From contig CAIMLR010000036.1 of the NCBI GenBank assembly GCA_903842345.1, forward strand, positions 186,001-250,000: a stretch of DNA of 64,000 nucleotides. The letters run 5' to 3'. This DNA is from an uncultured Myxococcales bacterium (lineage in GTDB: Bacteria > Myxococcota_A > UBA9042). Positions 20,168 to 41,023 of this stretch are shown in pieces (within the stretch, counting starts at the first letter, position 1; every line of letters starts with the position of its first letter). A program made the translations under genes and the position numbers. Below the pieces are notes generated by a model, which saw only the letters and a list, made by a program, of their open reading frames with translations, searched no databases and was not told where the DNA came from.

Positions 20168-20180
20168 GGCCCAACAAGAC

Positions 20181-20292
20181 GCGGGGGACGGATCTGGTGG
20201 GGTCCGTCCCCCGCAGTGGGTTCCCGCTAGGGAACGCTAATCCTCCGCCAGTAGTCTGTCCCCCTGAAGGGATACGATGACGCTGGCGGAGG
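20181..20292 (+). terminator. Two strong hairpins after the capsid gene
   Basis: First stem: GCGGGGGACGGA (20181-20192) with its perfect complement at 20203-20214. Second stem: CCTCCGCCAG (20242-20251) with its complement at 20283-20292. No T-run follows either. Likely roles are partial termination or 3'-end protection, giving more capsid than tail protein. Confidence 0.6.
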
Positions 20293-20324
20293 CACCCACC
20301 ACCTAATTCTCAGTGGGGCAACAC

Positions 20325-22672: not shown

Positions 22673-22676
22673 TAAG

Positions 22677-23936: not shown

Positions 23937-23966
23937 GTTCCCACCTCCACCAAGGAAACCCACCAA

Positions 23967-24323: not shown

Positions 24324-24397
24324 CTCTGGATGGCGGGCAACAGCCGACGTGGACAGAGCGTTGGCGTCTTCTAGCTGACCTTGCCGCAGACATCGCA

Positions 24398-24664
24398 ATG
24401 GTCCGCATGGCGCACTCGTGCGACCCCGACCAAGACTGCGACGGCCAAGGATTCGAGTTCGACGGGCACATCTGGAATGTCTGCCCGCACGACGCGCTAC
24501 AGGACCCATATTTTGCGACCGCACAACTGCTGGCCGACGCACAGGAAGTGCAACCACTATCTGATTGGCCGTCTGGTTGGCCTGCGGGCATCAGTTACTG
24601 CGTGCAGGTGATCCGCTCCGCACGCATCCGCAAGGCACGCAGGGACGCGGCTGACCAACAGTAA
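24398..24664 (+). CDS. Tail assembly chaperone extension, probably made by -1 frameshift
   Basis: From the ATG at 24398 the frame gives 88 residues with HSCDPDQDCDGQGFEFDGHI, but it is open back to 24287 with no ATG, GTG or TTG between, and the upstream residues (LTLDGGQQPTWTERWRLLAD) look coding. That fits a gpT-like extension reached by slipping -1 near 24302 from the gene at 23967. An independent start at 24398 has no good ribosome site. The D-x-D and Cys-rich part could bind a metal. A 20-bp hairpin follows. Confidence 0.65.
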   Translation: MVRMAHSCDPDQDCDGQGFEFDGHIWNVCPHDALQDPYFATAQLLADAQEVQPLSDWPSGWPAGISYCVQVIRSARIRKARRDAADQQ

Positions 24665-24674
24665 CCGAACCATC

Positions 24675-24726
24675 TTGTTCCCCCAACGGGTCTTCTTCTC
24701 TTCTTTAAGACCCGTTGGGGGAACAA
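24675..24726 (+). terminator. 20-bp perfect hairpin before tape measure gene
   Basis: The arms at 24675-24694 and 24707-24726 are exact complements over 20 bp, with a 12-base pyrimidine-rich loop. It starts 10 bases after the chaperone stop. This is the longest stem seen in the window; it may limit read-through into the tape measure gene or be an RNA processing site. Confidence 0.65.
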
Positions 24727-24746
24727 CGGATTCCAAACACCCAGTA

Positions 24747-24757
24747 GTGGCTATCGC
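24747..24757 (+). promoter_or_regulatory. Intergenic motif GTGGCTATCGC, copy 4
   Basis: It lies between the 20-bp hairpin and the tape measure ATG at 24781, 23 bases before the start. The first G of the fuller motif is A here (AGTGGCTATCGC), and the ACCTCCC extension is missing. Confidence 0.55.
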
Positions 24758-24780
24758 AGGCACTCGTTGGAGGCGTCTGT

Positions 24781-27189
24781 ATGGCTATCCCCGCCGCGAA
24801 AGTAGAAACCCGCATCGTATTGGAGACCGACGACCGTGCCAGCAAAGGCATTAAGGACGCCCACGGTGCTCTGCGTGACTTCGGCCACGAAGCCGAAGGC
24901 GTTGGCGGTCAGTTCCACGAAATGGGCGAGAAGGCGGCTGGCGCGCTCTCCAGCACATCCCGCCTCGCACGTCCGCTAGCTGGGTTTGCCGGTGAAGCTG
25001 GTGGCGAAGTCCGCGAACTCGGTCACGCCATGCACGGCTTCGCATTGGCGACTGAGCTTATCCCAGGTCCGCTCGGAATGGTTGCCGGTGGTGTCGTCGC
25101 ATTGGGTGTCGCCGCCGTGTTGACCAACCAGCACATGGAGAAGTTGGCGGCACAGAACCGCCTCCTGAACACCCCCCTTAGCCAGAACCTGCGTGGCGAA
25201 CTCGACCTCGACGCTGAGGGCGCACGGAAGGCAGCAGAAGCGATGGAGGGACTGCGCTCCCACACGGCTCTGAACAACACGATCCTGAAAGAAGTCATCG
25301 CCAACGCTAAATCTTTGGGGGAGGAACCGGCAAAGGCCGTCGAAGACCTCGCCAAGGCTTGGGCCGGTGGCGTTGTCGGTGTCCTTGCCTATCAGGCCGC
25401 ACACGGACGTATGGCCGGTCTGGACCGTGAGTCACTGGACGCGACCGCTGAGCGCCTCGGTCTTGACCGAGAAGCACTGGGTCTGGCTGACAAACAACTC
25501 ACGCTCGGCCAGCAACTAAACGACCAAACGCTTGCCGCTGCAAAGGCTCGCCACAGCGTGGACGTGGACATCGCGGCGGTCAACGACGCCCTGTACAAGT
25601 CGATCCACGGCTACACCGACGAAGCGAAACGTGCCGGTAAGGAGCAATACGCCGCCCTACTTGAACGCCTCGGCCCAGAATCCCAGCTAACTGAGGAAGC
25701 CGACCGCCAGGTCAAGTACACGCAGCAGACGCTGACGTTCAACAAGGAGCAGGCCGCAGAAGAGAAGGCGCGATCCGAAGACCAGAAGCTCGCCAACCTA
25801 CAGGCAGAACTGGCAGGCACCAAGGCCGAACAGCGCCAATTGAAGCTCGCGTCCATTGGTGAACAACAGGCAGAGGTAGCAAAGAAGCTCGCCACCTTGG
25901 AGGAACTGCGTGCCGTCATTGGCGGTGGCCTGACCGACGATCAGAAGCGTCAGCTCGAAATCCTGAAGGCCCAGTTGGAGGTCGAAACCAAGGCGATCCA
26001 CGAGGCCGATAACTCAGAGAAGAAGGCCGCGCACAAGAAGGCAGCGGAGGACGCGAAGAAGCGCCAAACCGAATCTGCGAAGGAACGCACCGACTACCAG
26101 AAGGCAATCGGAGAGGTCGAGTCGCAGCAGATGCTCGCCGCCGCAGGTAACGACGCGATGAAGCTCGCGAAGGTCCAAGAGCAGAACCTGATTGCCGCTG
26201 CTAACCGAGAGGAAACGGCGATTCACTTCTCGCTCGACAGCGCACGCGTCAAAGCGGCCAAGTTTGAGGCGATCGAAGGCAAGCTGGATCAGGACTTGGC
26301 GAACCTACACAGGGAGGCGACCGACCAAGAGCTAACCACCGCTCAGGAACGCGACGACGCATTGGCCCAGTTGGAAATGGCGCGGCTCGCTGAGAAGAAG
26401 AAGCACCTGCTCGCCGAAGACGACCTCAACGGTGCGCATGCCATCGACGTCCAGATTGCCGACCTCGACCTGCACCAGAAGCAAATCGAGGAAGAGCGAC
26501 GTTTTGCGACCGAGATGCTGAGCGCGAAATCCGACCAAGCGAAGGCCGAGATCCAGCAGGCCCACGAGCACAACCTTGAACTGCTGAAGCTGAACGGCGC
26601 GAACAAGAACGGATCGGACAAGAACGGCACGGAGAACGCCGCACGCGGATACGCGTCCCTTGAAGCAGCGGCGAACGCAGCCAACGCGGCAGGCACGAAG
26701 GGCGCGCAAGCGGTTGGCAATTTGGCCAAGCATTCTGCCCAGCTCAACAAAGACTGGGAGCAGACCAAGAAGGCCGGTGGTGGCATTGTCGATATGGCAC
26801 CCGGTATGGTCGAAGCTGCTGGTTCCATCGCCGCTGGCTTCGTGGACGGCGAGAAGTCCAAGGCCGGAATCATGGCGATCACTGAGTTTGCTGCTGGTTG
26901 GGCGTCCTACCCGAACCCAGTCGGCATGGCTTCCCACTTCACGGCAGCGGCGATCTACGGGTCCATTGCTGGTGGCATCATCGGTGGTGGTGGTTCATCG
27001 GCTCCCGGTGGTGGTGGCGGTTCCGGTGGTTCGTCGCCGTTCAGCCCATCAGGTGGGTCCGCTGGGCAAGGTGGTCATACCATCAACGTCATTTATGGCG
27101 TTCTCGGCACCAAGCAGCAGCAGGGCTTGGCCATACAGCAGGCAATCGCAGCAACCCGTGGCACTGGCTTCTCCGGCAAGGGGGTCTAA
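24781..27189 (+). CDS. Tail tape measure protein
   Basis: The 802-residue protein is the longest in the tail block except the tail tip protein. It has long charged helical and coiled-coil stretches (about residues 300-620), a hydrophobic region near residues 80-120 (ELIPGPLGMVAGGVVALGVA, AVLTNQHMEKLAAQ), and a Gly-rich C-terminal end after FTAAAIYGSIAGGIIGGGGS. These are standard for tape measures, which set tail length and line the tube. By length it would fit a tail of roughly 120 nm at 0.15 nm per residue, an estimate only. Confidence 0.88.
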   Translation: MAIPAAKVETRIVLETDDRASKGIKDAHGALRDFGHEAEGVGGQFHEMGEKAAGALSSTSRLARPLAGFAGEAGGEVRELGHAMHGFALATELIPGPLGMVAGGVVALGVAAVLTNQHMEKLAAQNRLLNTPLSQNLRGELDLDAEGARKAAEAMEGLRSHTALNNTILKEVIANAKSLGEEPAKAVEDLAKAWAGGVVGVLAYQAAHGRMAGLDRESLDATAERLGLDREALGLADKQLTLGQQLNDQTLAAAKARHSVDVDIAAVNDALYKSIHGYTDEAKRAGKEQYAALLERLGPESQLTEEADRQVKYTQQTLTFNKEQAAEEKARSEDQKLANLQAELAGTKAEQRQLKLASIGEQQAEVAKKLATLEELRAVIGGGLTDDQKRQLEILKAQLEVETKAIHEADNSEKKAAHKKAAEDAKKRQTESAKERTDYQKAIGEVESQQMLAAAGNDAMKLAKVQEQNLIAAANREETAIHFSLDSARVKAAKFEAIEGKLDQDLANLHREATDQELTTAQERDDALAQLEMARLAEKKKHLLAEDDLNGAHAIDVQIADLDLHQKQIEEERRFATEMLSAKSDQAKAEIQQAHEHNLELLKLNGANKNGSDKNGTENAARGYASLEAAANAANAAGTKGAQAVGNLAKHSAQLNKDWEQTKKAGGGIVDMAPGMVEAAGSIAAGFVDGEKSKAGIMAITEFAAGWASYPNPVGMASHFTAAAIYGSIAGGIIGGGGSSAPGGGGGSGGSSPFSPSGGSAGQGGHTINVIYGVLGTKQQQGLAIQQAIAATRGTGFSGKGV

Positions 27190-27867
27190 GTGATCTGCTT
27201 CCACACCAAAGACAACTGGGCCGGTGCCCAGATCACCGTCGTAGTCTCAGGGACGTCGCACCTGTGGACCTGCACTTCCAGTGCTCACAACGCGCTGGAA
27301 GCGGTCAACCAGTTCTCGGATTGGTTCGGCTCTGCGTACACACCCGCACGAGTCGCAACGCCGACCTACGCCAGAAACCCGACAGACGGCGGCATCAAGG
27401 TCACGTTCGCCTTCACGGTCGCGTCGTCCGGTGCCGCCCAATCGGTCACGATGACGCCAAACGCTTCCGCCACATCCCTTCTGGGCTTCGGCACCGCAAC
27501 CGGCTCCGTCCTCACTGCCTCCGCGTCTGCCGCAGGCACGTGGTCGCCGGTACAGGCGAACGGTCGGGTCAGCTACTCACTCGACTACCCGATGGTCTTG
27601 GGCACTGGCGATGCCGCTGGTGCCGGTGCAATCCGCCAAGACGTACCGGGGCATGGCCACTACAAGCCGACCGTCGAGGCCATCGGAAACGCAATCGACG
27701 CCGGACGTCTTACCGGCGTCATGGCTGGGATGCCAACCGGACGGTATGGTTGGATTTACACGACGTTGGCCAAGCAGTGGCTCTTCTTGGCCTTCGGTGC
27801 CGTCACGCGCTCCGCCGCTGGTCGCAACCTCTACAAGTTCTCTTTTGACGTAGGAAGGACTTCGTAA
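27190..27867 (+). CDS. Putative distal tail protein
   Basis: The 225-residue product starts with GTG right after the tape measure stop: MICFHTKDNWAGAQITVVVS. It is beta-rich. Its place directly after the tape measure is that of distal tail proteins, which link tube to tip. It overlaps the next ATG by one base. No family was confirmed. Confidence 0.6.
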   Translation: MICFHTKDNWAGAQITVVVSGTSHLWTCTSSAHNALEAVNQFSDWFGSAYTPARVATPTYARNPTDGGIKVTFAFTVASSGAAQSVTMTPNASATSLLGFGTATGSVLTASASAAGTWSPVQANGRVSYSLDYPMVLGTGDAAGAGAIRQDVPGHGHYKPTVEAIGNAIDAGRLTGVMAGMPTGRYGWIYTTLAKQWLFLAFGAVTRSAAGRNLYKFSFDVGRTS

Positions 27868-28619
27868 TGGCCGGTGCACGCATTGAAAGCTACGCCTACT
27901 CAGAAGGTCCAGCAGCCATCGGTGCCGCCGCGCCAGCCGTGGCCAAGTATCAAGGCGTCCAGACGCTGGCGGTCATTGAGCAGGCATACCCGTCCGATAC
28001 GACCTACGCACGTCCAGCCGAAGCCACGCTCTGGGACGACCTGTTGGTGTCCTGGGGAACTTCGTTGTCGTCTGCCTACCCGATGGGGGCGCACGCAGGC
28101 CACTACTTAGTCACCTACAGCCAGACGACCAAGCGCGTAACGATCGCCAGCACCAACAGCGTGTCATTCCGCCCCGTCATGGTCGGCTCTGGCGCGACCT
28201 ACTTAGGGTTCACGCAGTCACTATCTGGTTGGGCAACTAGCTGGACCGGCGCGTCAGCACCACTCGGTTGCGTTGAAATGGTCGGCGTCACCGTCAAACC
28301 CGCAGAAGACGGCGCGAAGCCGACGATGACGCGTTACCGCCACGGCAGGTGCTACCCAGTCGGATGGGGCAACACGTTCACCCACAAGGTGTCTGTCTGG
28401 ATTCGCCAAGCAGATGCCCAGCACTTGAGCGCGGGATGGTGTCTGACTGGTCGCGTCCGCATCTTCCAAGACAGCGCGCACCTGACGGCTTACAGCCCGA
28501 CCAACCTGTCTGGCTACGTCGATGGCTACGTGGTCAACGCCACGAATCTGAAAGCGTATGGGGCAACTGAGGACTTTTTGACGATGGACCTGACGATCGC
28601 CACTGGACGTGCATCATGA
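27867..28619 (+). CDS. Putative tail tip protein
   Basis: The 250-residue beta-rich product starts MAGARIESYAYSEGPAAIGA. It contains aromatic-rich strands (GRCYPVGWGNTFTHKVSVWI) and ends in an ATGA overlap with the tail hub gene. Placement fits a minor tail or baseplate-like component. No family was recognised. Confidence 0.55.
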   Translation: MAGARIESYAYSEGPAAIGAAAPAVAKYQGVQTLAVIEQAYPSDTTYARPAEATLWDDLLVSWGTSLSSAYPMGAHAGHYLVTYSQTTKRVTIASTNSVSFRPVMVGSGATYLGFTQSLSGWATSWTGASAPLGCVEMVGVTVKPAEDGAKPTMTRYRHGRCYPVGWGNTFTHKVSVWIRQADAQHLSAGWCLTGRVRIFQDSAHLTAYSPTNLSGYVDGYVVNATNLKAYGATEDFLTMDLTIATGRAS

Positions 28620-31231
28620 TCTGGGACTCCTTGAAATATGGATGGAATGTCAACTACTGGCTGACGATATCCGGTATCGACTGCGTGTTCAGCGAAGCGA
28701 GCGTTACCGGAACACCCCCCGATGGGTTCGCGTCGATGCTCAAGTCATTGGTGATCGACCACTCGGCGGAAGTGGGCCAGTCGGTAGACCGTGACACCGG
28801 AATGGGTCAAGGTCTTCCGCTGACCTTCTCATTGCTCAGCGCCCCTGCTTTGGCAGCGATCATGCAGACGCCGACGATGACGACCGTTTTGACGCAGAAT
28901 TGCGTCGCTGGCACGCCCTACACTGGAACCGGCACGCTCCACGTTCAGGACACGTCGGCGTTCCCGTCGTCGGGCACCCTGTACGTCGGCCTCGAAACGT
29001 TTACGTACACCGGCAAGACGTCCATCACCTTCACTGGTTGTTCGAACGCACTTCACGGCTCTCTGGCTTCGTCGCATTTTTACGGCACGGCAGGTGGCAC
29101 GGTCACGAACAGACCGCGTGTCTGGCGTGGTCGTGAAGTCCGCTTGTACGCAGCTCCTGTCTCGCCGGACGGCACGACAACGGGGTCCGCTCTCGCCGAT
29201 GAATCACAAGAAGTATGGCGCGGCTTCATTGACCAAGGCCCGTACAGGGACGGCTCCGACAGGTTCACGGTCGAAGCACTGTCAATGGACCGCGTGTTGG
29301 CCAACCCACTGCCGTGCGGTGCCACTGGCGTCGTGCAGAAGTACTCAAGCCGTCAGCCAGTCCACCAGGACCAGTACCTTCAGGTCGTGATCGAGGCCTA
29401 CAACTCCAGCAACGCGGCAATCTCTGGGTACCCGTTGCAGGTCATCATCACGCCGTTCGACAACATCCCGGACGGAACGCTGATGGAAATCGCAGACATC
29501 ATCGCGACCATTCAAGCCCGATGGGACGCCGCACTGGTAGACCTTGGCGCACCTGCCATCAAGCTGATGTTCAACACGCATGTTGGCGATTACACGTACA
29601 ACACTGGGTACTTCCTGTACCCATCCAACGCCGCGATCGACCATAGCGTCTTCACGGTCGTGGTCAATGGAAAGCTAAAGGTCGACCACCACGCTATGTG
29701 GTGGGGTCCGTCTGGCCTTGGTTTCGACGTGAACCCGAAGCCGATCATCCCGACGTGGAACGGAGGCGCAAACCCGCTCGGCGGTGGAGCGACATCCAAT
29801 GAGTACGGCCAGTGGGACCCTAGCGGAGACACAGGCGAATCGATGACGCTGGTGGTCGAGTTGGATTCACCTGCGGACGCGATTCCCCCCTATGGGTTGC
29901 TGACGGTCGGAGACGAAACAATCTCTGGCAAGGCTACAGTGGTCGGAAACCTCGCGTACTTCTATGACTTGCGCTACCTGTCGCCCAAACAGAACATAGC
30001 GTGGACGCCCAAGGATAACGCAATTGGCAAGACGGTTGAGTACACCTTCTCGGAGACCAGTGACTACGCATACGACCTGATGTGCCGGTCTTTGGAATCT
30101 TCCGGTGCTGGCACTCGGGGTGATTACGACTACTGGGGATACGGCGATGGCTACGCGATCGACCAGAGTGCAATCGACGTGGCCAGCTTCGTCAGCGGAC
30201 TCGCTTCTGCAATCGTTGGTCTGAACCTACGCGTCGGCGGGTCTGGCCTGTCGTTTCAGGACATGTTCAGCGGTCTTCTGGCGTTGGTGCAGCGCGGTGT
30301 CGTGGCCCGTCCCGACTCTTCTGGCCGCGTCCGATTGGGCATCGTGTCCACCGACGTCAATGGGTCTTGGTACAAGACGAAGATCACTGATGAGCACCTG
30401 TTGTCCTTCAACAGCGAACCGGTCGTATCCGTCCGAAAGCGCGACCCGGTGACCCAGATCAAGGTGTCCTTCACGACCGACGCTAAGGGTAAGGACAGCC
30501 CGACCGTTTACACCGTGCAGGAGACTTCTGGCGTACTCGAATCGGGTGGACAGACGCTTGACCTTGCGCTCGCCTTGAATGGCCCACAGCCTTCGGCTGA
30601 CTGGACAATCCAAGGTTGGTGCGCCACGATTTTGGCGCAGTCGCACGCCGTCCAGACGATCGAAGTGCGCGTCGTCCCGTGGTTGGACGTCAACGTCGGC
30701 GACATGTGCCGACTGGAAACGACGCACCCCACGTTGTGGAACTGGGCTACTGCATCCGAAGGATTCACAGGTCAGGCACGGTGCATCGGCACCCGCCGCG
30801 ATCTGATGGGTGGCGCGCTGACTCTGACGCTGGTTGTCCAAGGTGGCCCGGTCGTGTCGGGTTTGTCGCCCGCAGCACGGATCAACTGGTACGACAGTTC
30901 GTCCGCACCGACGCTCGTGGACATCGATCACAAGTTCTTGTCCTACATGCAGCAGTCGATCTCAGAGAACGCGGGGGCCGCAGTCCGACTGATGCACTAC
31001 CAGGTCGGAATGGGCAACGAGGCATACGGCGGCTACCTGATCGTGTCGGCTGCGAACTCAGTCACGGTTTCCGGCGTCGACTGGTGCCGCCTGACGATCG
31101 CCAGCAGTTCGATCGCTGGGGCCAGCTTATCCACCTCGTTGAACAGCACACTCACGTTGCCCGCAGGGGCGGTCGCCACTGGCTGGCAGAACATGTTCGC
31201 TCACGCAGGCGACGGAACCTTCTGGGGATAA
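28616..31231 (+). CDS. Large tail tip or hub protein
   Basis: The 871-residue protein has an N-terminal region like siphovirus hub proteins, where a shifted-domain pattern RPRVWRGREVRLYAAPV is followed by EVWRGFIDQGPYRDGSDRFT. The middle has GDYDYWGYGDGYAIDQSAID, and the final third has NVGDMCRLETTHPTLWNWAT. It is the largest gene after the tape measure and likely forms the tail tip that contacts the host. The receptor-binding part cannot be assigned. Confidence 0.7.
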   Translation: MIWDSLKYGWNVNYWLTISGIDCVFSEASVTGTPPDGFASMLKSLVIDHSAEVGQSVDRDTGMGQGLPLTFSLLSAPALAAIMQTPTMTTVLTQNCVAGTPYTGTGTLHVQDTSAFPSSGTLYVGLETFTYTGKTSITFTGCSNALHGSLASSHFYGTAGGTVTNRPRVWRGREVRLYAAPVSPDGTTTGSALADESQEVWRGFIDQGPYRDGSDRFTVEALSMDRVLANPLPCGATGVVQKYSSRQPVHQDQYLQVVIEAYNSSNAAISGYPLQVIITPFDNIPDGTLMEIADIIATIQARWDAALVDLGAPAIKLMFNTHVGDYTYNTGYFLYPSNAAIDHSVFTVVVNGKLKVDHHAMWWGPSGLGFDVNPKPIIPTWNGGANPLGGGATSNEYGQWDPSGDTGESMTLVVELDSPADAIPPYGLLTVGDETISGKATVVGNLAYFYDLRYLSPKQNIAWTPKDNAIGKTVEYTFSETSDYAYDLMCRSLESSGAGTRGDYDYWGYGDGYAIDQSAIDVASFVSGLASAIVGLNLRVGGSGLSFQDMFSGLLALVQRGVVARPDSSGRVRLGIVSTDVNGSWYKTKITDEHLLSFNSEPVVSVRKRDPVTQIKVSFTTDAKGKDSPTVYTVQETSGVLESGGQTLDLALALNGPQPSADWTIQGWCATILAQSHAVQTIEVRVVPWLDVNVGDMCRLETTHPTLWNWATASEGFTGQARCIGTRRDLMGGALTLTLVVQGGPVVSGLSPAARINWYDSSSAPTLVDIDHKFLSYMQQSISENAGAAVRLMHYQVGMGNEAYGGYLIVSAANSVTVSGVDWCRLTIASSSIAGASLSTSLNSTLTLPAGAVATGWQNMFAHAGDGTFWG

Positions 31232-31234
31232 CGA

Positions 31235-32287
31235 ATGGCAATCACGACACCAACCAAGCTCGTCGTTTCCAAGGCGGACGAGTTCAACTTCACGCAGATG
31301 GCCGCAGGCCCGTTGCAGGTATCCTTAGCGAACAGCAATCACCTGTACGGCCATTTTTGCCCGAACCTGCTGTCGTTCAGCCCGATGGGCGGTCTTCTTG
31401 CTGCATCGACCACCTACGTGGTCCCCGTCGTGCCGTCCGTCGATGGGTTGTCCTACGACTTCATCTACACGGTGCTCGCTGGTGCGACCGACCCGTTGAC
31501 TATTCAGGTCTACAAGAACACTGGGGCCAACCCGGCGTCTGGCTGGACGAGCATCTACGGACCAACTGCCACGGCCTCGATGACGGTCGGACACTGGTTC
31601 GTACACCGCCATTCGACCGTCATCGCGGCGAACGTCACGATGCTCAAGTTCGTCGTCGTCGCACGCGCTGGCTACGACATGTTGAGTCACGTCGCTGTCC
31701 AGCCCACTGCCACGGCGGTCGCACCTCCACTGCTCAAGGCATCTGGCTTCTTGCCATTCGATGACTCGCTGATCTCTAGCCCTCGTGCGCCGATCAACAC
31801 CGAGATGGTGAACCGTGCCAAGTCCAACGCGCTGAACGTCTTGCGCGACCGCAAGCAATGCATCGCGTCCTTCGTGCAACCTTACGTCGCCGCTCCGTTC
31901 ACGACAGGTGGCTACGCGGTAAGCACACCCAGCGGATACACAACCACACCTTGGTCCCTGATGGGCAAGGCGACTGGTTTCCTACCGGGGAAACAATACG
32001 GGAACATCACCGTGTACTGCCTGTCGTCCGTGACCGGTGGCGCAACGGCTGACCAAGTGGTCATGGATCTCACCTGCCAGCCGTTGAGCAGTACCGGCAT
32101 TGACTCGACCGGGCTATTGAAGACTGACCTGTCTGGAAACGTCGTCCCGTCGCTCACTTTGGTGGTTTGGGGAACAGGTGTGTCCAACCCAGAGGTTCCG
32201 ATCGAGATCCGCGTCCGTGCGACCGCTGGGCACACCACTTACATCCACAGTCTGATTGCTTTTTGGACACCAACGGGGGCCGTGTAA
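31235..32287 (+). CDS. Putative tail fibre-module protein
   Basis: The 350-residue product starts MAITTPTKLVVSKADEFNFT. It is Thr/Ser/Val-rich, beta-type, with no catalytic motif seen. It lies between the tail hub and other receptor-side genes and overlaps the next ATG by one base (TAATG). A fibre or receptor-binding role is inferred from place. Confidence 0.55.
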   Translation: MAITTPTKLVVSKADEFNFTQMAAGPLQVSLANSNHLYGHFCPNLLSFSPMGGLLAASTTYVVPVVPSVDGLSYDFIYTVLAGATDPLTIQVYKNTGANPASGWTSIYGPTATASMTVGHWFVHRHSTVIAANVTMLKFVVVARAGYDMLSHVAVQPTATAVAPPLLKASGFLPFDDSLISSPRAPINTEMVNRAKSNALNVLRDRKQCIASFVQPYVAAPFTTGGYAVSTPSGYTTTPWSLMGKATGFLPGKQYGNITVYCLSSVTGGATADQVVMDLTCQPLSSTGIDSTGLLKTDLSGNVVPSLTLVVWGTGVSNPEVPIEIRVRATAGHTTYIHSLIAFWTPTGAV

Positions 32288-32868
32288 TGGCAAGAACCTG
32301 CAAACAGCGTGACTGGAGCACCGAACACGTCGCGATATCTTTGTGCGGCACCGATGTCGCTCCACCTGCGTCCCTGTGGCTGCTCAAAGAAGCCGATCAG
32401 GTCCAGTTGGACGTCGGCATGGCCTACTGCCAGACCGCCCTGATGGTCGAGAACAACACAGCCGCGTCCGGTACAACCCGCCGATTTATGGCGGTCATCC
32501 CGCCCGGACGTAACCACGCCTACCTGACGTTCACGCGATGCGCCAGTGGTCCGCTCAACGCACAGGTGGACACAACGGCTGGTTGGGATGCGACTGGACT
32601 TGGTACCGGAACCATCACGGAGACTGTCAAACAGGGGACGACCACGTCTGGTGCTGAGACCTACCTGGGAATGGGCACGACGCTCGGCGATTCCCAGTCC
32701 TTGTCTACGTCCGATCATGTTGATGATGTCTCCGCTGGCCTCCAGTACCGCGCCTTGATCGTGCCAGAAGACCGCGTGGCCACGAACGCTTGGTTTCAGG
32801 TCAGTCACACCGCTGGCCATTGCCTCGTTGTCCACGGCGTCACGCAGGACTTAGAAACCCTGCCGTAG
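32287..32868 (+). CDS. Putative minor tail or fibre protein
   Basis: The 193-residue product starts MARTCKQRDWSTEHVAISLC. It is a beta-rich protein coupled to the gene before it by TAATG. No family was recognised. GGTGGCTATCGC follows its stop by 8 bases. Confidence 0.55.
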   Translation: MARTCKQRDWSTEHVAISLCGTDVAPPASLWLLKEADQVQLDVGMAYCQTALMVENNTAASGTTRRFMAVIPPGRNHAYLTFTRCASGPLNAQVDTTAGWDATGLGTGTITETVKQGTTTSGAETYLGMGTTLGDSQSLSTSDHVDDVSAGLQYRALIVPEDRVATNAWFQVSHTAGHCLVVHGVTQDLETLP

Positions 32869-32874
32869 TGGTCC

Positions 32875-32887
32875 CGGTGGCTATCGC
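32875..32887 (+). promoter_or_regulatory. Intergenic motif CGGTGGCTATCGC, copy 5
   Basis: It lies 6 bases after the stop at 32868 and 27 bases before the ATG at 32915. The ACCTCCC extension seen in copies 1-3 is replaced by GAACGCC. Confidence 0.6.
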
Positions 32888-32914
32888 GAACGCCTTGATA
32901 AGAAGGTGTAAACG

Positions 32915-33964
32915 ATGCGACAGCCCAGAATTCTCTACCGTCACGGCCAACCAGTTTCAGCCCAAATCGTTGCCCTTCACGGCACGCGCACGGCGGCAAA
33001 CGCAAACCAGAATCACGTCTGGGCAGGTGAAGGGTCGTTACGCCCGGTTCCTGCCTCCCCCGGTGCAATCCACGTCGGGTCCGGTTCCGCTGATGACGTG
33101 GCCTCATCCGATCTGGTGCCAGCCACTCCTGAACTCGTAGACATCACCCTCGCGGGCACGCCCGACGCTGGCGCTCCTTCGGTGGCGTCGGTGACGGATG
33201 GCGTGCACACCTATTCTGCGACGTACACGGCTGGCACGCTCGGCGACCTCGCGACAGCCCTTGCCGCTGCAATCAACGGCAACGATGGTTACTCCGCGTC
33301 TGCTGCTGGTCCCGTCGTTTCGGTAAGTGGTCCGACTGGCTACACCCTGACCGACGCATCGCACGATGACGTCACCGCCTCGTTCGTTGTGACGAGCGCA
33401 GGTACTGCCGAGATCCCCGCCGTCGTGGGCACCGGCGCTCATTCCGTCAAGGTCTTCTACTTGAACGGCGATGGCCAATCCAAGTCTGAGTCGATCGCGC
33501 TGAATGGCACGTCCCCGGTCGCATCGGTCGCTACCGACGTCTACCGCATCCAGTCTGTCGTCGTTGAATCTGTCGGCTCTGCTGGTGCTGCGGTTGGCAG
33601 CATCTACATCATCGACGCCGGTGAATCAACCATGTACGAAACGGTCCTCGCTGGTGCTACCGCGTCGGCGTCCGTCATCTACACGGTCCCGGCGAGCAAG
33701 AGCCTCTACATCGACCGTCTGACTGCCACCCCTGGCAACAGCACGGTTGGCCACGTTCGCCTCATCGCGACCGCACTGCCCGAAGCTGCCGTGGACGCTG
33801 GCGTCAACTACGTCCTGACCGACTTCTACGCTTCCCAACTGATGAACCTCGCCTTCCATGACGCGCCACTCGGCCCGTTCCCAGCAGGTTCGCAGATCTC
33901 CGTGACCGTCGAAGGCGACGGCTCATTGGTTGCCATCGACCTCCTTGGCTACTTGGACGACTAA
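32915..33964 (+). CDS. Putative tail fibre or surface protein
   Basis: The 349-residue product starts MRQPRILYRHGQPVSAQIVA. Residues about 75-125 (VTDGVHTYSATYTAGTLGDL, ATALAAAINGNDGYSASAAG) repeat the domain seen in the large protein at 20325. The C-terminal half is beta-rich and could form a trimeric fibre or decoration domain. The shared unit suggests both proteins are displayed on the virion. Confidence 0.6.
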   Translation: MRQPRILYRHGQPVSAQIVALHGTRTAANANQNHVWAGEGSLRPVPASPGAIHVGSGSADDVASSDLVPATPELVDITLAGTPDAGAPSVASVTDGVHTYSATYTAGTLGDLATALAAAINGNDGYSASAAGPVVSVSGPTGYTLTDASHDDVTASFVVTSAGTAEIPAVVGTGAHSVKVFYLNGDGQSKSESIALNGTSPVASVATDVYRIQSVVVESVGSAGAAVGSIYIIDAGESTMYETVLAGATASASVIYTVPASKSLYIDRLTATPGNSTVGHVRLIATALPEAAVDAGVNYVLTDFYASQLMNLAFHDAPLGPFPAGSQISVTVEGDGSLVAIDLLGYLDD

Positions 33965-33983
33965 ACGAGAAGGACGCTCACCA

Positions 33984-34355
33984 ATGACCCCGCCAAAGAC
34001 ACCCGACCTAAACATCACGACAACCCCACCTTGGTATCAGACCACGCTAGCCAAGTCCGTTCTCGGCCTCGTTGGCGCTGGTTTGATCGCCGCTGCCGGT
34101 AACCAAGCTGCCACGCCAGCACCTGTCGTGGCACCACTGCCACCTGTGCAGCCTCCCGCCGTCTTGGAAGAGCGCATCGCTGTGCAAGCAGCTACCGCGA
34201 TCCGCATCGAGACAAAGGTCGATCAGGTCGCCGACGACGTGAACCAGATCAAGGTCAGTCTTGCGCGAATGCAGGGCGCGACGGTTGGCAAGGCACTGTC
34301 CGACTCTCCGCTGGTGACGACCGTGCTGGCCAACACCGTGAGGGCCACGCCGTGA
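33984..34355 (+). CDS. Putative inner-membrane spanin (Rz-like)
   Basis: The 123-residue product starts MTPPKTPDLNITTTPPWYQT. One membrane segment (LAKSVLGLVGAGLIAAAG) is followed by a Pro-rich stretch and a charged helical region (IRIETKVDQVADDVNQIKVS) able to form a coiled coil. This is the layout of an inner-membrane spanin. The next gene, overlapping by 4 bases, is a short lipoprotein, the expected outer-membrane partner. Together they would fuse the two membranes at the end of lysis. Confidence 0.65.
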   Translation: MTPPKTPDLNITTTPPWYQTTLAKSVLGLVGAGLIAAAGNQAATPAPVVAPLPPVQPPAVLEERIAVQAATAIRIETKVDQVADDVNQIKVSLARMQGATVGKALSDSPLVTTVLANTVRATP

Positions 34356-34549
34356 AGAAGCTGCTCGCCGGTCTGATCCTTTGCTGCGTCATCCAAGGCT
34401 GCTTGCCGACGACCAGCGCCTACGTCCTGAAGGGACCAGAGGCCAACGAAGCGCTCCCATACGCCAAGTACCTCCGTCGCGACACGTTGCTCTGCCGATC
34501 TGCCGTGAAGATCCCGATCGCTACGACACCGGCAGACGCCTGCGAGTAG
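34352..34549 (+). CDS. Putative outer-membrane spanin lipoprotein (Rz1-like)
   Basis: The 65-residue product begins with GTG overlapping the previous stop: MKKLLAGLILCCVIQGCLPT, a lipoprotein signal with Cys at about 17 in the lipobox IQGC. The mature part is under 50 residues, as for many o-spanins, though it is less Pro-rich than Rz1 of lambda. Coupling to the membrane-anchored coiled-coil gene supports the call. Confidence 0.65.
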   Translation: MKKLLAGLILCCVIQGCLPTTSAYVLKGPEANEALPYAKYLRRDTLLCRSAVKIPIATTPADACE

Positions 34550-34581
34550 AGTTCGGACAGACACACAACTAGGGGTATGCA

Positions 34582-34764
34582 ATGGACATTTCAACCGCGA
34601 TCGCAACCATTCTTGCCGCGTTCCACGGCTTCAACACGCTGATCCGTCCGCAGATCCCAGCCGCCTCTTGGGCGAAGCTCGGCGCTGTCGGTCGCGTCGT
34701 GGACGTCCTGCTGGGCAACTACGGCAACACGGCCAACATCCCCGTCATAGACGAGCAGAAGTAA
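34582..34764 (+). CDS. Small holin-like protein
   Basis: The 60-residue product starts MDISTAIATILAAFHGFNTL after AGGGG. It has one moderately hydrophobic N-terminal segment and a C-terminal GNYGNTANIPVID. Size and place in the lysis group suggest a holin or holin-associated protein, but the membrane segment is weak, so the function is tentative. Confidence 0.5.
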   Translation: MDISTAIATILAAFHGFNTLIRPQIPAASWAKLGAVGRVVDVLLGNYGNTANIPVIDEQK

Positions 34765-34767
34765 CCA

Positions 34768-35778
34768 GTGGCCAAGCACGCGCTGGTCATTCCCGACATG
34801 CACGTTGGTTTCCGACGTGCCACCAACGGCAACCTTACGCCACTCCACGATGAATCGGCCTTGAAGGCAGCGCTGAAGATGGCGCGGCAGATCCGGCCAA
34901 GCGAAGTAGTCATGCTGGGCGACAACCTCGACCTCGCCGCGTGGTCGTCCAAGTTCGTCCCGACGCCCGACCTTAGGGAAACGACACAGGCCAGCCTCGA
35001 ATGCCTCCGTGACTTTCTCGTCGCCCTTCGGAAAGCCGTTGGACCCAAGTGCCGCCTGACCTACCTCGAAGGCAACCACGAGGCACGAATAGGCAAGCTC
35101 TTGCTCGTCGTGGCAGGTGAAGCCTACGGTCTGTCGCCAGCCGGTTCGGACGTCCCTGCGTTGTCGGTACCTGGGCTGCTGCGATTGGCCGACAAAGACC
35201 TACGCATCAACTACCTCGGACCATACGGCGCGACGTACTGGCTCTGGGGCAAGGTCGAGTGCACGCACGGCGACCTGATCAGGAAGCGTGGCGGTCACAC
35301 GGTTGGCGCTCGCCTTGTTGAGCACCCGAACCACCAGACCTTTGGACACATCCACCGCTGCGAGCTGGCTGGCCGAACGCTTCACGGCGCGTCGGGTCCG
35401 CACACCGTCTGGGCAATGTCTCCGGGGACGCTAGCCCGACTCGATGGTGTCGTCCCAGCAGGAACGGCGCACGTCGATTGGCAGCAAGGACTGGGGCTGA
35501 TCACGCTCGATGGCGAAGACATAGCGATGTTTCTGATCCCGATCACCAACGGCAAAGCGATGTTGCCGGGAGGTTTGAAGCCCATGATGGACCTAGACGA
35601 TGGTATAGACGACGAGAAGGTAGTCACGAAGCTAGCCGAACCTGAACCGAAGGACGCCGACAGGTTCCGCGAATTGCAATGGGTCGAAACGCTCCCGCAG
35701 GTCTGGGAACAACGCCACGTACCTGTCCAGCAGGACGACGCGATCCTTGGGATCAACCTGACGGACGTGCTGTCATGA
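34768..35778 (+). CDS. Metallophosphoesterase in lysis region
   Basis: The 336-residue product starts with GTG. It carries the calcineurin-type metal-binding set: IPDMHVG, VVMLGDNLDLAAW, YLEGNHEARIGK, a CTHGDLI and a final FGHIHRCELAG, giving the Asp, Asn and His ligands of a two-metal site. It would hydrolyse a phosphate ester, perhaps of nucleic acid or nucleotides; the substrate is not known. It is coupled to the endolysin gene by ATGA, which is an unusual position for such an enzyme. Confidence 0.85.
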   Translation: MAKHALVIPDMHVGFRRATNGNLTPLHDESALKAALKMARQIRPSEVVMLGDNLDLAAWSSKFVPTPDLRETTQASLECLRDFLVALRKAVGPKCRLTYLEGNHEARIGKLLLVVAGEAYGLSPAGSDVPALSVPGLLRLADKDLRINYLGPYGATYWLWGKVECTHGDLIRKRGGHTVGARLVEHPNHQTFGHIHRCELAGRTLHGASGPHTVWAMSPGTLARLDGVVPAGTAHVDWQQGLGLITLDGEDIAMFLIPITNGKAMLPGGLKPMMDLDDGIDDEKVVTKLAEPEPKDADRFRELQWVETLPQVWEQRHVPVQQDDAILGINLTDVLS

Positions 35779-36278
35779 CCGGAGAAGTGCTGATCGCTCG
35801 CGGACGCTCAGCCATCGGCAAAGGCGTCGTTTACGGCTTAGGCAAGGGAGGTCTTTGGCCTCTCGATAAACTGCCGTGCCGATCGTCGGCGAAGCTGGTC
35901 AACGGTGTTGCGAAGACCGCGCTCTGGTGCGACTGCTCAGGTTTTGTAGCTTGGGTGCTTGGCCGTTCACGGAAGGACAGCAAGGACTGGCCTTGGTGGT
36001 TGTCGACCGATTCGGTGTACGACGACGCGAAGGACGACGGCAAACACGTCCTGTTTACGAAGCTCGACAAGGCCGAACCGGGCTGTCTGGCTGTCTACTC
36101 CGACTGGAAGGACGCGGACGGGACGCACCACGAAGGACACATCGCCGTTGTTTCAGATCCTGCACTGCATCTTGTTATAGACTGCTCATCTTCTCAGAAT
36201 GGCATCGCGGAACATGCGCAGCCTGTCTTCTGGTCAGAACATCACGCCGTAATATTTTGCGCTTATCGCGGTTCTTAG
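35775..36278 (+). CDS. NlpC/P60-type endolysin
   Basis: The 167-residue product starts MTGEVLIARGRSAIGKGVVY. The cysteine-peptidase core is visible: LWCDCSGFVAWVLG with catalytic Cys, then EGHIAVVSD with catalytic His, and a polar residue near VIDCSSSQ. NlpC/P60 enzymes cut peptide stems of peptidoglycan. No signal peptide is seen, so release probably depends on the holin. It is the last gene of the lysis group. Confidence 0.8.
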   Translation: MTGEVLIARGRSAIGKGVVYGLGKGGLWPLDKLPCRSSAKLVNGVAKTALWCDCSGFVAWVLGRSRKDSKDWPWWLSTDSVYDDAKDDGKHVLFTKLDKAEPGCLAVYSDWKDADGTHHEGHIAVVSDPALHLVIDCSSSQNGIAEHAQPVFWSEHHAVIFCAYRGS

Positions 36279-36337
36279 AACCTGCAACGTCGCTTTCAGA
36301 ACTTCTGTACCTTGTCCATTTTTTGACCGAGCTTCCA

Positions 36338-36430
36338 ATATACGGTGATGATATACCGTATATCGTCAGACTATATCACCGACTAGGCGACAGCCATATA
36401 GCCTATAATAGTCTGAAACACATAGGCTAT
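36338..36430. promoter_or_regulatory. AT-rich dyad cluster, candidate lysogeny operator
   Basis: The 310-base gap after the endolysin gene is AT-rich and carries several dyads: ATATACGGT (36338-36346 with complement at 36355-36363), CAGACTAT (36367-36374 with complement at 36408-36415), and ATAGCCTAT (36398-36406 with complement at 36422-36430). TATAAT lies at 36404-36409 inside the cluster, a possible -10 box, with no clear -35. This is how repressor operators over a promoter look. The next gene, 160 bases on, encodes a winged-helix-like protein. Confidence 0.6.
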
Positions 36431-36588
36431 GCACCTGCACAGCTATACCTACCTGCCGGACGACGGGGCCACGCCTGCCTACACGATCTTCGGCATGCAT
36501 GCCAAAAAGTGGCGGTCTGATGGAATCCGCTTGACGAGCCTCCCAACATTTCGTATTCTCCGTTGCGGCACTGCGCCGGAGGTACTCG

Positions 36589-37131
36589 ATGACGAACCAG
36601 CCGATGGAAACGAAGGTAGAGGAACTGCTACGCGCGAGTCGTGCTGAACTGGCGCGCAACGAGACCACCTTGGAAGAGTACGACCGCAATCGATTCCCCC
36701 TGTACGCCATCGTGATGGCAAACAGGGCTGTCGTGGCGGCACTTTCCGAACTTCTGGGGGCACAACCTGCACGCCTTCCTGCGTATGTTCCCCGTCCGGC
36801 CCAGAAGCCAGACGCCCCGGTCGCGCAGCGCCGCACGCACGGTGGTCGGGCGCGCATGGAACGCGTCAAAGCAGCGTTCTCCGCTGTGGGCAACATCGCA
36901 ATGTCTCCGAACGACGTGGCCCACAAGGTCAACGAGGGCTTGTTGCCGGACGACCCGAACTTCATGAAACGTGACGCGATCAACAGCATGATGCACCGCG
37001 AAACCGACGTGTTCGAGAAGGACGGCTACGGCAAGTACCGCGTCATCCCCGCCATCTTCGACGCCGAACCGGTGTCGATGTTCTCCGACGATGCCGACGC
37101 GAACGGCGGCAACGCTGAGGTGGTCCAATGA
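36589..37131 (+). CDS. Winged-helix-like phage protein, candidate lysogeny regulator
   Basis: The 180-residue product starts MTNQPMETKVEELLRASRAE. The N-terminal third is helical and charged. A basic linker (RRTHGGRARMER) leads to a C-terminal part that reads like a winged helix: AMSPNDVAHKVNEGLLPDDP, INSMMHRETDVFEKDGYGKY. It lies between the lysis genes and the integrase, behind the dyad cluster, so a regulator role is plausible. It is not similar to CI-type repressors, so this is inference. Confidence 0.55.
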   Translation: MTNQPMETKVEELLRASRAELARNETTLEEYDRNRFPLYAIVMANRAVVAALSELLGAQPARLPAYVPRPAQKPDAPVAQRRTHGGRARMERVKAAFSAVGNIAMSPNDVAHKVNEGLLPDDPNFMKRDAINSMMHRETDVFEKDGYGKYRVIPAIFDAEPVSMFSDDADANGGNAEVVQ

Positions 37132-37190
37132 GAAGGTAGGAACCGGCACGCGCCTGTAGTGCACAGGGGGCGCGCGTGTCGGGAATGCCC

Positions 37191-37236
37191 ACCCCGCCTG
37201 AGAGCCGACTTTCGACGGCAGACTCTCAGGCGGGGT
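37191..37236 (+). terminator. 14-bp hairpin after the winged-helix gene
   Basis: ACCCCGCCTGAGAG (37191-37204) pairs perfectly with 37223-37236 over an 18-base loop, 60 bases after the stop at 37131. The loop includes part of GACGGCAGACT (37214-37224), which recurs at 37547-37557. Confidence 0.6.
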
Positions 37237-37599
37237 GCCCTGGATGTCAAGGTGCCGGTGGAGAGATGCGCTGTAGCTGGCGCATCACGTACCGGAAAGC
37301 TGGACGCGGAACATGTGAAACGCCCCGTATCGACCGGTAGTAGCTTAGCTACTGCCACAAGGCGGCGTCAACTTCTCCGCACGCGTCCGGCACCACGTTG
37401 TCTGGCCGAAGGGCCATTCTGTTCGGTGTAACCGTGCGTATTTATTATTGTACCGTACGCGATTGCCGTTGTGGTTGTGTGGTTGAGTTCCGCACGATCG
37501 ATGGTCGTCGCGTGCCCATGCACCAGCACTAACTGAAGATCTGCTTGACGGCAGACTGATGGACGCCTGACCGGCGTCGGCACGACCTGTGCCAAACTT

Positions 37600-37642
37600 G
37601 GCAGGGACGGTGGGGTCACCCCACCGTCCCTGCCGTGGTTTT
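37600..37642 (+). terminator. Rho-independent terminator
   Basis: A perfect 16-bp stem (37600-37615 with 37619-37634, 3-base loop) is followed by GTGGTTTTT. This is the best intrinsic terminator in the window, the only phage stem with a clear T-run. Confidence 0.8.
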
Positions 37643-37729
37643 TGGGCCACCATCCGCTTGACGCAGGATGACCGACGCGTGCTACCTTCCAGCGCACAAC
37701 GCCCCCAAGCGGAAACAACGGCGACGACC

Positions 37730-37918
37730 ATGCCCAGTTCAGGCACCGACGAATCGACTGGACTGGTCGTCGCCGCGTTGCTGGCCGAAGCCGACCGGCT
37801 AGACGCGCTCGCGTTGGTCTTGCCGGACTTCGCCGACGCTGCGACAACACGAGCGCTGGCTGAACGGACGCGGGCACAGGCTACCGCGCTCGCCCTGTCA
37901 CCGGATGACGAAGACTAA
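37730..37918 (+). CDS. Small hypothetical phage protein
   Basis: The 62-residue product starts MPSSGTDESTGLVVAALLAE and is helical, Ala/Leu/Asp-rich. The ribosome site is weak. It lies 19 bases before the next gene, probably in the same transcript. No family was recognised. Confidence 0.45.
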   Translation: MPSSGTDESTGLVVAALLAEADRLDALALVLPDFADAATTRALAERTRAQATALALSPDDED

Positions 37919-37937
37919 CCACCCACAAGGAGTACAC

Positions 37938-38177
37938 ATGGCTTTCCCAGACGCAAATCATCAGGTCAACGAGGCGCATCAAGTTGGCGAGTCATTCAAA
38001 CCGTATGGCGACGCTGGCGGGACCGTCCCCGAGGTCTGGGTCTCGCGCGGGCATTGGAAGCAAGATGGCGTCACGCATAAGGTCTGGGGAATTGGGACCA
38101 CGAAGGCGGCGGCGCAGGCAGACGCCGAACGGCGCGTGAATGCCCATGAAATCAGCGAATGGGCGCAACAGCCCTAG
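37938..38177 (+). CDS. Small hypothetical phage protein next to integrase
   Basis: The 79-residue product starts MAFPDANHQVNEAHQVGESF after AAGGAG. It has GHWKQDGVTHKVWGIGTTKA followed by a helix, a small alpha-beta pattern. It converges on the integrase gene; the two stops share CTAG (38174-38177). No family was recognised. Confidence 0.6.
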   Translation: MAFPDANHQVNEAHQVGESFKPYGDAGGTVPEVWVSRGHWKQDGVTHKVWGIGTTKAAAQADAERRVNAHEISEWAQQP

Positions 38178-39997
38178 CGGGTCGCCAGCGCCTCAAACGC
38201 CGCCTTCGTCGCCGCCAACTCGGCTTCGCTCCACATCCGCATACCAGATCGGACGCGGGTGGCTGGCTCAGGAAGCTTGCCGAACCTGTACAGGCGCTTC
38301 AGCGTTGCCGCCGTCGTCCCCAAGCGCTCGGCCACCTGCGACAACAGCAGACCGTTTGACGACGGGATCAGCATCGCCGTCTTCTTGTCGCCACCCAGCA
38401 GGTCCGCCCACGTCGCGAGATCGCTGTGTGGGTACAGAACGCCACCGTCGGCGGTCGGCAGTCGCAACGAGATCGACTCGATTCCGATCTGCGACACGAA
38501 GATCGCCGACACGTACTTTTTGCACCACGCGCGCTTCTGCTCGTTGCTCCACGACGAATCGAACACCCAGGCATCCGGCGCAAACGTCGCGTCCAACTCG
38601 ATCGCAGTCGGCTGCACAGGACCGGCGACAACCCCAGCCAGCTTCGCTTCGGCATCGCGGCGATCCTTGCGGATTCCGTCTTGCTGCTGGTCGTGCTTGG
38701 CCCTGTCGATCCGACCGTCCACGTACAGGTCGGCGAGGCGCGCTTCCTTGGCCGCGAAGCCGTCCAGAAGCTTCTCCAGCCGTTTCCGCTCGCTCGTCGT
38801 GTCGGGCGTCTTCTTTGCCGCTTCCCGTGCGCCGGAAACCACATCCTTGTCCCTTGTCAGTGAGACAAGGTAGCGATCAACCGCGATGTTGATTCGCGCG
38901 ACGGGTGGTTCGCCGAACTGGCACTTGCCGATGCCCTTGGTCCTTGTCGACTTGCAGGCGCAGACGTAGCGGACCTGATTGTTGTGCGTCTTGCCGGTGT
39001 TGTGCCCATAGGCGACGTGGCCGGTCTGTTCACCCGTCAGGTCAAAGAAGCCGTTGATTACAGCACCGTGGGTGTCTGGCGCGTCATGGGCACGGACGAA
39101 GCCCGACAGATAGGCGTCCTTGGACGTCTCCCGCATCGACACGGAGATCCGCGCAACCCGATCAACCAGCTTCGCCTGCGCCTTCGCCCACGTTTCGTCC
39201 GACACCAACTGCGGCAATTGCCCTTCACCGCCGAAGATGCGAACGCGGATGACGTCTTCGTCCTTGCGCGCGATCTTTTTGCGTTCTGGCTGGCGACCGG
39301 CGACGGTCGGGTAGGCTTCGCCCCGCCGCTGGTCGAACGTCACGATGCCCTTATAGATGGTGTTGGTCAGGACGTTCTTGATCGAATTCCGCGTGTAGCC
39401 GAGATCGCTGGCGATCGATTCGCTGCTTTCACCTGCGAGAAAGCGATCATAGGCGTCTGCGATCGCCTGCGCTTCGCCCGTGTACGTCCAGCCGTTCTTG
39501 CGGTCGTACTGCGTGCCGCGTGGTGCAATCCCCGACACCCAGTGGCCTGCCTTCCGGCGCTGCTCCTTGCCCGCTTGGGCACGGCGCGTGATCTCCACCT
39601 TCTCCTTGCCAGCCAGCAGCGCGAGGATTCCGCTTACCAAGGCGTCATCGGCCTTGGACAGATCACGGACACCCTGCGGCGTGTAGATCTTGGTTGCAGT
39701 CGCTTGGCAGGATGAAAGCACGCCCAGATCAAGGTTGGATGCACGGATCAGCCGGTCGATCGAGTCGACGGCGATGTGCGTGTCAGGGTCGCGGATCGCG
39801 GGGAGGACCTCTTGGAGCCATTCGCGGGTCTGGGCGACAGCGGACCCCGAAACGCCTACGATCTCGACCCAGAGGACGTCGGAAACACCCTCGCGCTGGG
39901 CAATTTTGCGGATCTCGTGGCGCTGGCGCTCAAGCCCCTCGCCGCCAATGCCTTCCTGTTGATCTGTGGAAACCCGAACTACGCCGACCAGCTTCAT
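38174..39997 (-). CDS. int: Large serine integrase with extra C-terminal HTH
   Basis: The 607-residue protein has the serine recombinase order. The catalytic domain has Ser10 in VVRVSTDQQ and an Arg motif VDSIDRLIR (78-85). A recombinase domain follows, then a zinc ribbon around YVCACKS and GKCQFG (about residues 340-360), then a coiled coil (ERKRLEKLLDGFAAKEARLA). The last 59 residues form an added MerR/excisionase-like HTH: LSQVAERLGTTAATLKRLYR, then GMRMWSEAEL. The ATG at 39997 is chosen for its AGGAGG 6 bases upstream over the in-frame TTG at 40003. It catalyses attP x attB recombination and lies 57 bases from attR. Confidence 0.93.
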   Translation of the reverse strand: MKLVGVVRVSTDQQEGIGGEGLERQRHEIRKIAQREGVSDVLWVEIVGVSGSAVAQTREWLQEVLPAIRDPDTHIAVDSIDRLIRASNLDLGVLSSCQATATKIYTPQGVRDLSKADDALVSGILALLAGKEKVEITRRAQAGKEQRRKAGHWVSGIAPRGTQYDRKNGWTYTGEAQAIADAYDRFLAGESSESIASDLGYTRNSIKNVLTNTIYKGIVTFDQRRGEAYPTVAGRQPERKKIARKDEDVIRVRIFGGEGQLPQLVSDETWAKAQAKLVDRVARISVSMRETSKDAYLSGFVRAHDAPDTHGAVINGFFDLTGEQTGHVAYGHNTGKTHNNQVRYVCACKSTRTKGIGKCQFGEPPVARINIAVDRYLVSLTRDKDVVSGAREAAKKTPDTTSERKRLEKLLDGFAAKEARLADLYVDGRIDRAKHDQQQDGIRKDRRDAEAKLAGVVAGPVQPTAIELDATFAPDAWVFDSSWSNEQKRAWCKKYVSAIFVSQIGIESISLRLPTADGGVLYPHSDLATWADLLGGDKKTAMLIPSSNGLLLSQVAERLGTTAATLKRLYRFGKLPEPATRVRSGMRMWSEAELAATKAAFEALATR

Positions 39998-40035
39998 GTC
40001 CAACCTCCTGAAAGGACGGATTTTAGCACAGCCCG

Positions 40036-40080
40036 CGAAACGCTACAATTGTCAGCCGCTTTCCAGCGGCTGCCGCAGCG
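40036..40080. other. attR: attR, right prophage junction
   Basis: Phage sequence ends at the GCC at 40055-40057, and comM continues at 40058. The word GAAACGCT occurs in both phage arms (40036-40043 here and 4394-4401 at the left end), 12 bases from the core on each side and in the same orientation. Confidence 0.88.
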
Positions 40081-41023
40081 TTTCCAACACGTTGCGGGGA
40101 AATTCCGCCAATTCGTCGAGGAACAGCACGCCGCGGTGGGCGAGCGACACTTCACCCGGCTTCGGCACCGAACCGCCGCCCACCAGCGCGGGTCCCGAAA
40201 CGGTGTGATGCGGCGCCCGGAACGGCCGCTCCGTCAGCAGGCCCAAGCCGCGGGGCAGCAGCCCGGCCACCGAGTGGACCTTCGTCACTTCGATCGACTC
40301 GGCTGGCTCGAGCGGCGGAAGGATCGTCGGAATGCGCCGGGCCAGCATCGTCTTGCCGGTGCCCGGCGTACCGACCATTACCACGTTGTGGCCACCCGCT
40401 GCCGCCACCTCCAGCGCACGCTTGGCCACCGCGTGGCCACGGACGTCGGACCAATCCAGCATCGCCCGGCGCGCCACCGGCGGCTCACCCACGGCCGGCT
40501 CGGGCCACGGCTGCTCGCGGCGCAGACAGCGGACGACTTCACCCAGCGTCGCCGCGACGCGCACCTCGATCCCGGGCACCACGATCGCCTCCGCGACGTT
40601 GTCGATCGGGCACAGCAGGCCGCGCAGACCGAGACGCCGCGCCATCTCCGCGACCGCGAGCACGCCACACACCGGTCGCACCGCGCCGGTCAGCGAGAGT
40701 TCACCCAGCACCGCCCAGCCCGTGAGCGCATCGAGCGGAATCGCGCCGTCAGCCTGCAGGACCGCCAGCGCGACGGGCAGGTCAAAGCTGGTGCCGTCCT
40801 TGCGCAGGTCCGCTGGCGCCAAGTTCACGACAACGCGCGTCTTGGGAAATGGCAGCCCGCTGTGGCGAATCGCGCTGCGCACGCGTACCCGCGCCTCCCG
40901 CACGGTGAGTTCGGCAAGGCCGACTGTGTCAAACGACGGAAAACCGCCGGTCACATCGCATTCCACGTCAATCGGCTGCGCGTCCACGCCCAGGACGGCA
41001 GCACCTACAACTTTGGCGAGCAT
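40052..41023 (-). pseudogene. comM: comM, N-terminal part separated by prophage
   Basis: This encodes the first 322 ComM residues plus the junction Gly, then stops at TGA made by phage bases (40052-40054). It holds the N-terminal Lon-like domain ([20 protein letters not shown]), Walker A GTPGTGKT and Walker [11 protein letters not shown]. The sensor and arginine-finger parts are on the 3' piece at 3818-4381, so this fragment alone should not form a working hexamer. Both pieces are free of other lesions, as expected if the insertion is recent or regularly reversed. Confidence 0.93.

Follow-up and report, generated by a model that had tools for sequence, protein, structure and literature searches.

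A large serine integrase with a C-terminal tail resembling a MerR-type winged helix-turn-helix, encoded by a prophage in comM

A prophage interrupting comM

The window, i.e. the whole stretch of 64,000 nucleotides analysed here, derives from an uncultured Myxococcales bacterium whose genus relatives are freshwater metagenome assemblies, likewise designated 'uncultured Myxococcales'. It contains a prophage located within comM, the gene of the transformation helicase (Table 1). The integrase gene lies at one prophage end, where the adjoining comM frame is broken after LRQPLE; the 3' part of comM is found at the opposite end, beside recA. Joining the flanks in silico results in a single open comM frame (509 codons from the ATG), and the intact comM of genus relatives provides the empty site. 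Precise excision of the prophage would restore comM. In the open-access literature we found no report of a serine integrase inserted in comM.

The protein encoded at one prophage end is the integrase of this prophage. A sequence-only reading of the DNA had described its open reading frame as a large serine integrase (large serine recombinase, LSR), and the description holds: the protein matches Resolvase (PF00239, E 1.7e-14) and Recombinase (PF07508, E 6.3e-10, above the cut-off), its ATG at 39997 has an AGGAGG immediately 5', and residues R10, S12, R84 and R87 are invariant in an alignment of its relatives. A TTG two codons 5' of the ATG gives an alternative form of 609 aa. By its sequence the protein belongs to the large serine recombinases, although its zinc ribbon is recognisable only in part: there is no match to Zn_ribbon_recom, the corresponding match of its relative L038 is weak, and the cysteines are kept in part among the relatives and are gone in L019. 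No relatives were found in IMG/VR. Similarity to proteins in INPHARED and PLSDB reaches at most about residue 410, mostly residue 300, and for the C-terminal 128 residues there is no phage match.

A separate gene at the prophage end opposite the integrase encodes an excisionase-like protein, a candidate directionality factor, with matches to HTH_17 (E 5.9e-8, above the cut-off), to the excisionase family phrog_66, and to TIGR01764 (excise, E 1.4e-5, slightly under the cut-off). Immediately inside attL, positions 4446-4886 encode an MqsA-family antitoxin-like protein (PF15731, E 5.7e-13). The phage protein encoded at 11972-12868 has HTH_17/excisionase-like as well as HNH-related matches and is possibly another DNA-binding factor.

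Table 1. Positions of the features discussed, in window coordinates unless a contig is given.
Feature	Position	Strand	Details and basis
Prophage, 35,676 bp	4387..40062	.	Both att junctions; terminase, capsid/protease and tape-measure matches
Interrupted comM, 5' part	40063..41023	-	PF13541 and PF01078 matches; rejoined frame
Interrupted comM, 3' part	3818..4386	-	Translation; rejoined frame
Integrase of the prophage (large serine recombinase); 607 aa with the ATG as start	38174..39997	-	PF00239 and PF07508; phrog_95 integrase; ATG with AGGAGG
C-terminal MerR/HTH_17-like winged HTH, residues 553-595 of the 607-aa form	38213..38341	-	MerR_1; phrog_597; divergent tails; MerR structure profile
attR	40032..40089	.	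P' arm 40032-40062, B arm 40063-40089, centre 40062/40063; comM breakpoint, B/P' motif; predicted outer limits
attL	4360..4417	.	B' arm 4360-4386, P arm 4387-4417, centre 4386/4387; comM breakpoint, B'/P motif
Excisionase-like HTH_17 protein, candidate directionality factor	5646..5993	-	HTH_17; TIGR01764; phrog_66
Repeat arrays	G000:C29:29000-48999 (L148); G000:C47:377000-396999 (L149); G000:C4:217000-236999 (L150)		Same repeat in G001-G004

The C-terminal tail

The last approximately 60 residues of the integrase follow the coiled-coil region and were previously read as an added helix-turn-helix (HTH) of the MerR/excisionase type. Several lines of sequence comparison back this assignment. The tail matches MerR_1 at residues 555-597 (609-aa numbering; E 0.014), aligned to positions 4-44 of the 69 in the model, with a score of 15.9 bits that lies below the curated cut-off of 21.6; the tails of the homologues are below the cut-off as well. 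The PHROG family phrog_597 ('DNA binding protein') spans residues 545-598 of the 609-aa form (E 6e-5). The weak match is not due to chance, since homologues that are divergent in this region (17-23% identical) match MerR_1 or HTH_17 independently and in the corresponding position (E 0.0033 for L012, 0.0085 for L014, 0.0093 for L019 and 0.00037 for L038). A profile of nine tails, in which L, L, R and W are invariant, matches the MerR-family crystal structures 5e01, 5d8c and 5d90 with E-values of about 0.002-0.004 over the winged HTH (wHTH). When the same profile was run against whole genomes across the phylum, the five best matches read outside the LSR clade were all of MerR type, namely HTH-citrate synthase fusions and MerR regulators. 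Resemblance of the tail to a MerR/HTH_17 winged HTH is thus supported at the level of sequence. The tail is not classed as a MerR regulator, because its score is below the curated cut-off and because the protein ends about 12 residues past the matched region, without the long dimerisation helix and effector domain.

The earlier reading had also proposed that such a tail could control the direction of recombination. A natural fusion of integrase and recombination directionality factor (RDF) would act on the zinc/coiled-coil region and allow excision by attL x attR. Typical excisionases include MerR/Xis-like HTH proteins. Integrase-RDF fusions engineered through the C-terminus do function (PMC5737554). 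These fusions, however, lower recombination between attP and attB (PMC5737554), which would hinder integration; the known RDF of the SPbeta type is a separate protein; and the prophage has an excisionase-like protein of its own. The tail and this protein gave no alignment. Since engineered fusions disfavour integration and the phage encodes its own candidate, we regard a built-in directionality factor as improbable, and nothing found here supports a role of the tail in the control of direction.

Distribution and evolution of the tail

The tail is a conserved trait of a clade rather than a one-off fusion, as judged by sequence comparison, and is not unique to the integrase of the window. Every intact close relative whose sequence was read to the end carries it (n = 9, including the window integrase): it is present in six copies in three genus genomes, in a second LSR of the window genome (L019) and in L038, an LSR from another Myxococcota family. 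These relatives are 35-39% identical to the window integrase over the full length. In a Pfam scan 5 of 32 Myxococcota LSRs match MerR_1 or HTH_17, all of them tailed members of the clade, and none of the other 27 does. The sequence-only reading had named presence of the domain in most related integrases as a finding that would refute it; this applies to the immediate clade but not to LSRs generally. Two other Myxococcota LSRs match HNH_repeat, a homing-endonuclease-associated repeat that is possibly another accessory domain.

In a tree of 36 LSR sequences (first 440 residues), the tail requires one change (SH-aLRT 89), and the neighbour of the tailed clade is the tail-less L016, which also lacks about 40 residues of the recombinase domain. 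The tree fits a single gain of the tail in the LSR clade. Estimated from six closely related copies, dN/dS amounts to 0.07 for the catalytic domain, 0.11-0.19 for the middle domains and 0.28 for the tail, which is thus under purifying selection. The weakness of the HTH-family match could be taken to indicate a passive, functionless leftover of a gene fusion; we consider this very unlikely, because no intact member whose sequence was read to the end has lost the tail, because it occurs in two Myxococcota families and because purifying selection acts on it.

Attachment sites

The prophage is bounded by attL and attR, each composed of a B and a P half, with the shift between P and B that is typical of LSRs. 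In attL, a motif common to B' and P ends at bp 27 and 31, respectively (4-bp shift, p 0.002-0.003); in attR, a motif common to B and P' ends at 22 and 26 (4-bp shift, p 0.003), a little past the canonical range and shorter than the attL motif. Canonical LSR half-sites comprise 20-25 bp. The LI integrase has an attP half-site of 25 bp, and its zinc-domain motif occupies bp 16-24 in attP and 11-19 in attB (PMC3783163).

In the genus relatives, the LSRs recombine within a small repeated sequence that is present both as intact copies (attB) and as copies adjacent to an LSR (attR). Aligned on the crossover, the B arm is near-invariant up to bp 32 within otherwise unrelated surroundings and conservation then drops abruptly. 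In their attR the B arm measures 32 bp and the P' arm 37 bp, and the outer motif, ending at 32 and 37, is shifted by 5 bp (p <= 0.003). The tail-less L016 is inserted in a repeated gene, where homology stops at a single point; its motif is found nearer to the centre, occupying bp 6-15 of B and 11-20 of P' (p 0.001, with the centre placed to give a 5-bp shift). Measured from outer motif to outer motif, with no centre chosen, the span is 69 bp in the relatives, 58 bp in attL and 48 bp in attR of the window, 35-41 bp in L016 and 43 bp in LI.

A single genome of the genus can hold as many as five tailed LSRs (L027-L034, L105-L116). Each of them is joined to a different copy of the small repeat, which is related to an 84-aa gene (FDDGAILVNCCPSCDVPA), and intact attB copies of this repeat persist elsewhere.

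Possible roles of the tail

MerR-type HTH domains are typical repressors or activators. A tail acting as a regulatory domain would bind an operator close to the integrase gene, thereby controlling expression of the integrase or of neighbouring phage genes; the start of the integrase gene is only about 65 bp from attR, such that binding to the att site could also block the promoter. An inverted repeat upstream of the relatives' LSR genes, considered as a candidate operator, was dropped since it turned out to be attR, and upstream of the integrase gene in the window we recognised no operator-like motif that is shared. A regulatory function hence appears doubtful. Screening the upstream regions of individual LSR genes blindly for inverted repeats yielded nothing informative.

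Many wHTH domains mediate protein contacts. The tail may accordingly be a module for protein-protein contact or stability, for example holding coiled coils or the tetramer, rather than one that reads DNA, and its faster evolution relative to the remainder of the protein is in line with such a role. We consider this unlikely, as it leaves unexplained the half-sites of 27-37 bp and an outer motif that moves with the shift between P and B.

The favoured reading, to which we assign roughly even chances, is that the tail is an additional sequence-specific DNA-binding domain recognising the outermost part of every att half-site. With its catalytic domain, recombinase domain and zinc-ribbon/coiled-coil region, the integrase would cut and rejoin attP and attB as serine recombinases usually do. 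The wHTH of the tail would sit after the zinc domain along the DNA and read about 7-12 bp at the outer end of a half-site, making attB and attP longer than usual and the enzyme more selective. That the tail contacts the outer arms is suggested by the unusually long half-sites in two tailed systems, i.e. the genus relatives and the window, together with the more central motif of the tail-less sister L016. We note that L016 is a weak control because of the missing residues of its recombinase domain and because its centre was placed to give the expected shift. The window's attR motif, which is shorter than that of attL and goes only slightly past the canonical range, also speaks against this reading. 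Alternatively, the zinc domain itself could lie further out, its cysteines being kept only in part. The proposal of the sequence-only reading that the tail helps to choose the site is thereby supported indirectly, by the length of the half-sites.

Serine integrases are widely used for DNA insertion, and limited specificity is a main weakness of theirs. With half-sites of about 27-37 bp and what appears to be an acquired extra module for reading DNA, this natural family would illustrate how recognition sites can be lengthened in evolution, and the tail would offer a module for integrase engineering.

Repeat arrays in the genus

A repeat of approximately 70 bp consists of a P-like arm of 37 bp and the same B' arm as in the att sites of the relatives. 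It is found in 18-32 copies per genome in all five genus genomes and almost nowhere else. In the window genome, 22 of 26 copies are organised in three arrays of a single orientation, in which neighbouring copies are separated by one or a few genes. The array repeats share the crossover point (between ACACC and AT, i.e. ACACC/AT) with the att sites of the tailed LSRs, and on contig G004:C148 a tailed LSR is located upstream of three repeat copies in the same orientation. No significant similarity was observed between the P-like arm of the arrays and the LSRs' own P' arm.

The repeats were considered as integron attC sites and rejected: no integron integrase (IntI, TIGR02249) scores above the cut-off in any of the five genus genomes, there is no Rfam match, and the two array-type sites that were folded have no excess structure. 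The arrays may have been left behind by successive LSR integrations, may serve a different recombinase, or may form a cassette system run by a serine integrase. That the clade of tailed LSRs includes enzymes serving an integron-like system, the tail providing the long-site recognition the arrays need, is a speculative and rather improbable extension. If true, arrays and tailed LSRs would constitute a serine-integrase counterpart of integrons; the open-access literature, to which our search was confined, yielded no description of a serine-integrase cassette array.

Comparison with known systems

In the open-access literature we found no paper that describes a MerR domain at the C-terminus of an LSR. 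The tail shares with wHTH proteins of the MerR_1/HTH_17 (excisionase) type the sequence pattern of HTH plus wing; unlike these, it is part of a recombinase, scores below the curated cut-off and has neither dimerisation helix nor effector domain. An HTH protein is also associated with an LSR in the DUF2924-recombinase-HTH sets of proteobacterial plasmids, where, however, the HTH is encoded by a separate downstream ORF and is of a different type.

With the integrases of LI/A118, Bxb1, phiC31 and SPbeta (YokA), the window protein has in common the resolvase and recombinase domains, the integration of a phage at a single site, and the asymmetry of B and P half-sites with a shifted outer motif. It differs by the MerR-like wHTH after the coiled coil and by longer half-sites, and its identity to these proteins is very low (about 25-30%).

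The HTH of IS607-family transposases is of MerR type. These serine transposases likewise combine a serine recombinase and an HTH in one chain, but the HTH is N-terminal (an inverted domain order), the protein is small and target specificity is minimal (PMC4058570). Engineered integrase-RDF fusions also carry a second module at the C-terminus of a serine integrase; they are artificial, and the added module is the cognate RDF, which disfavours integration (PMC5737554). The window protein, in contrast, integrates its phage or did so in the past, and the excisionase-like protein of that phage is encoded by a gene of its own.
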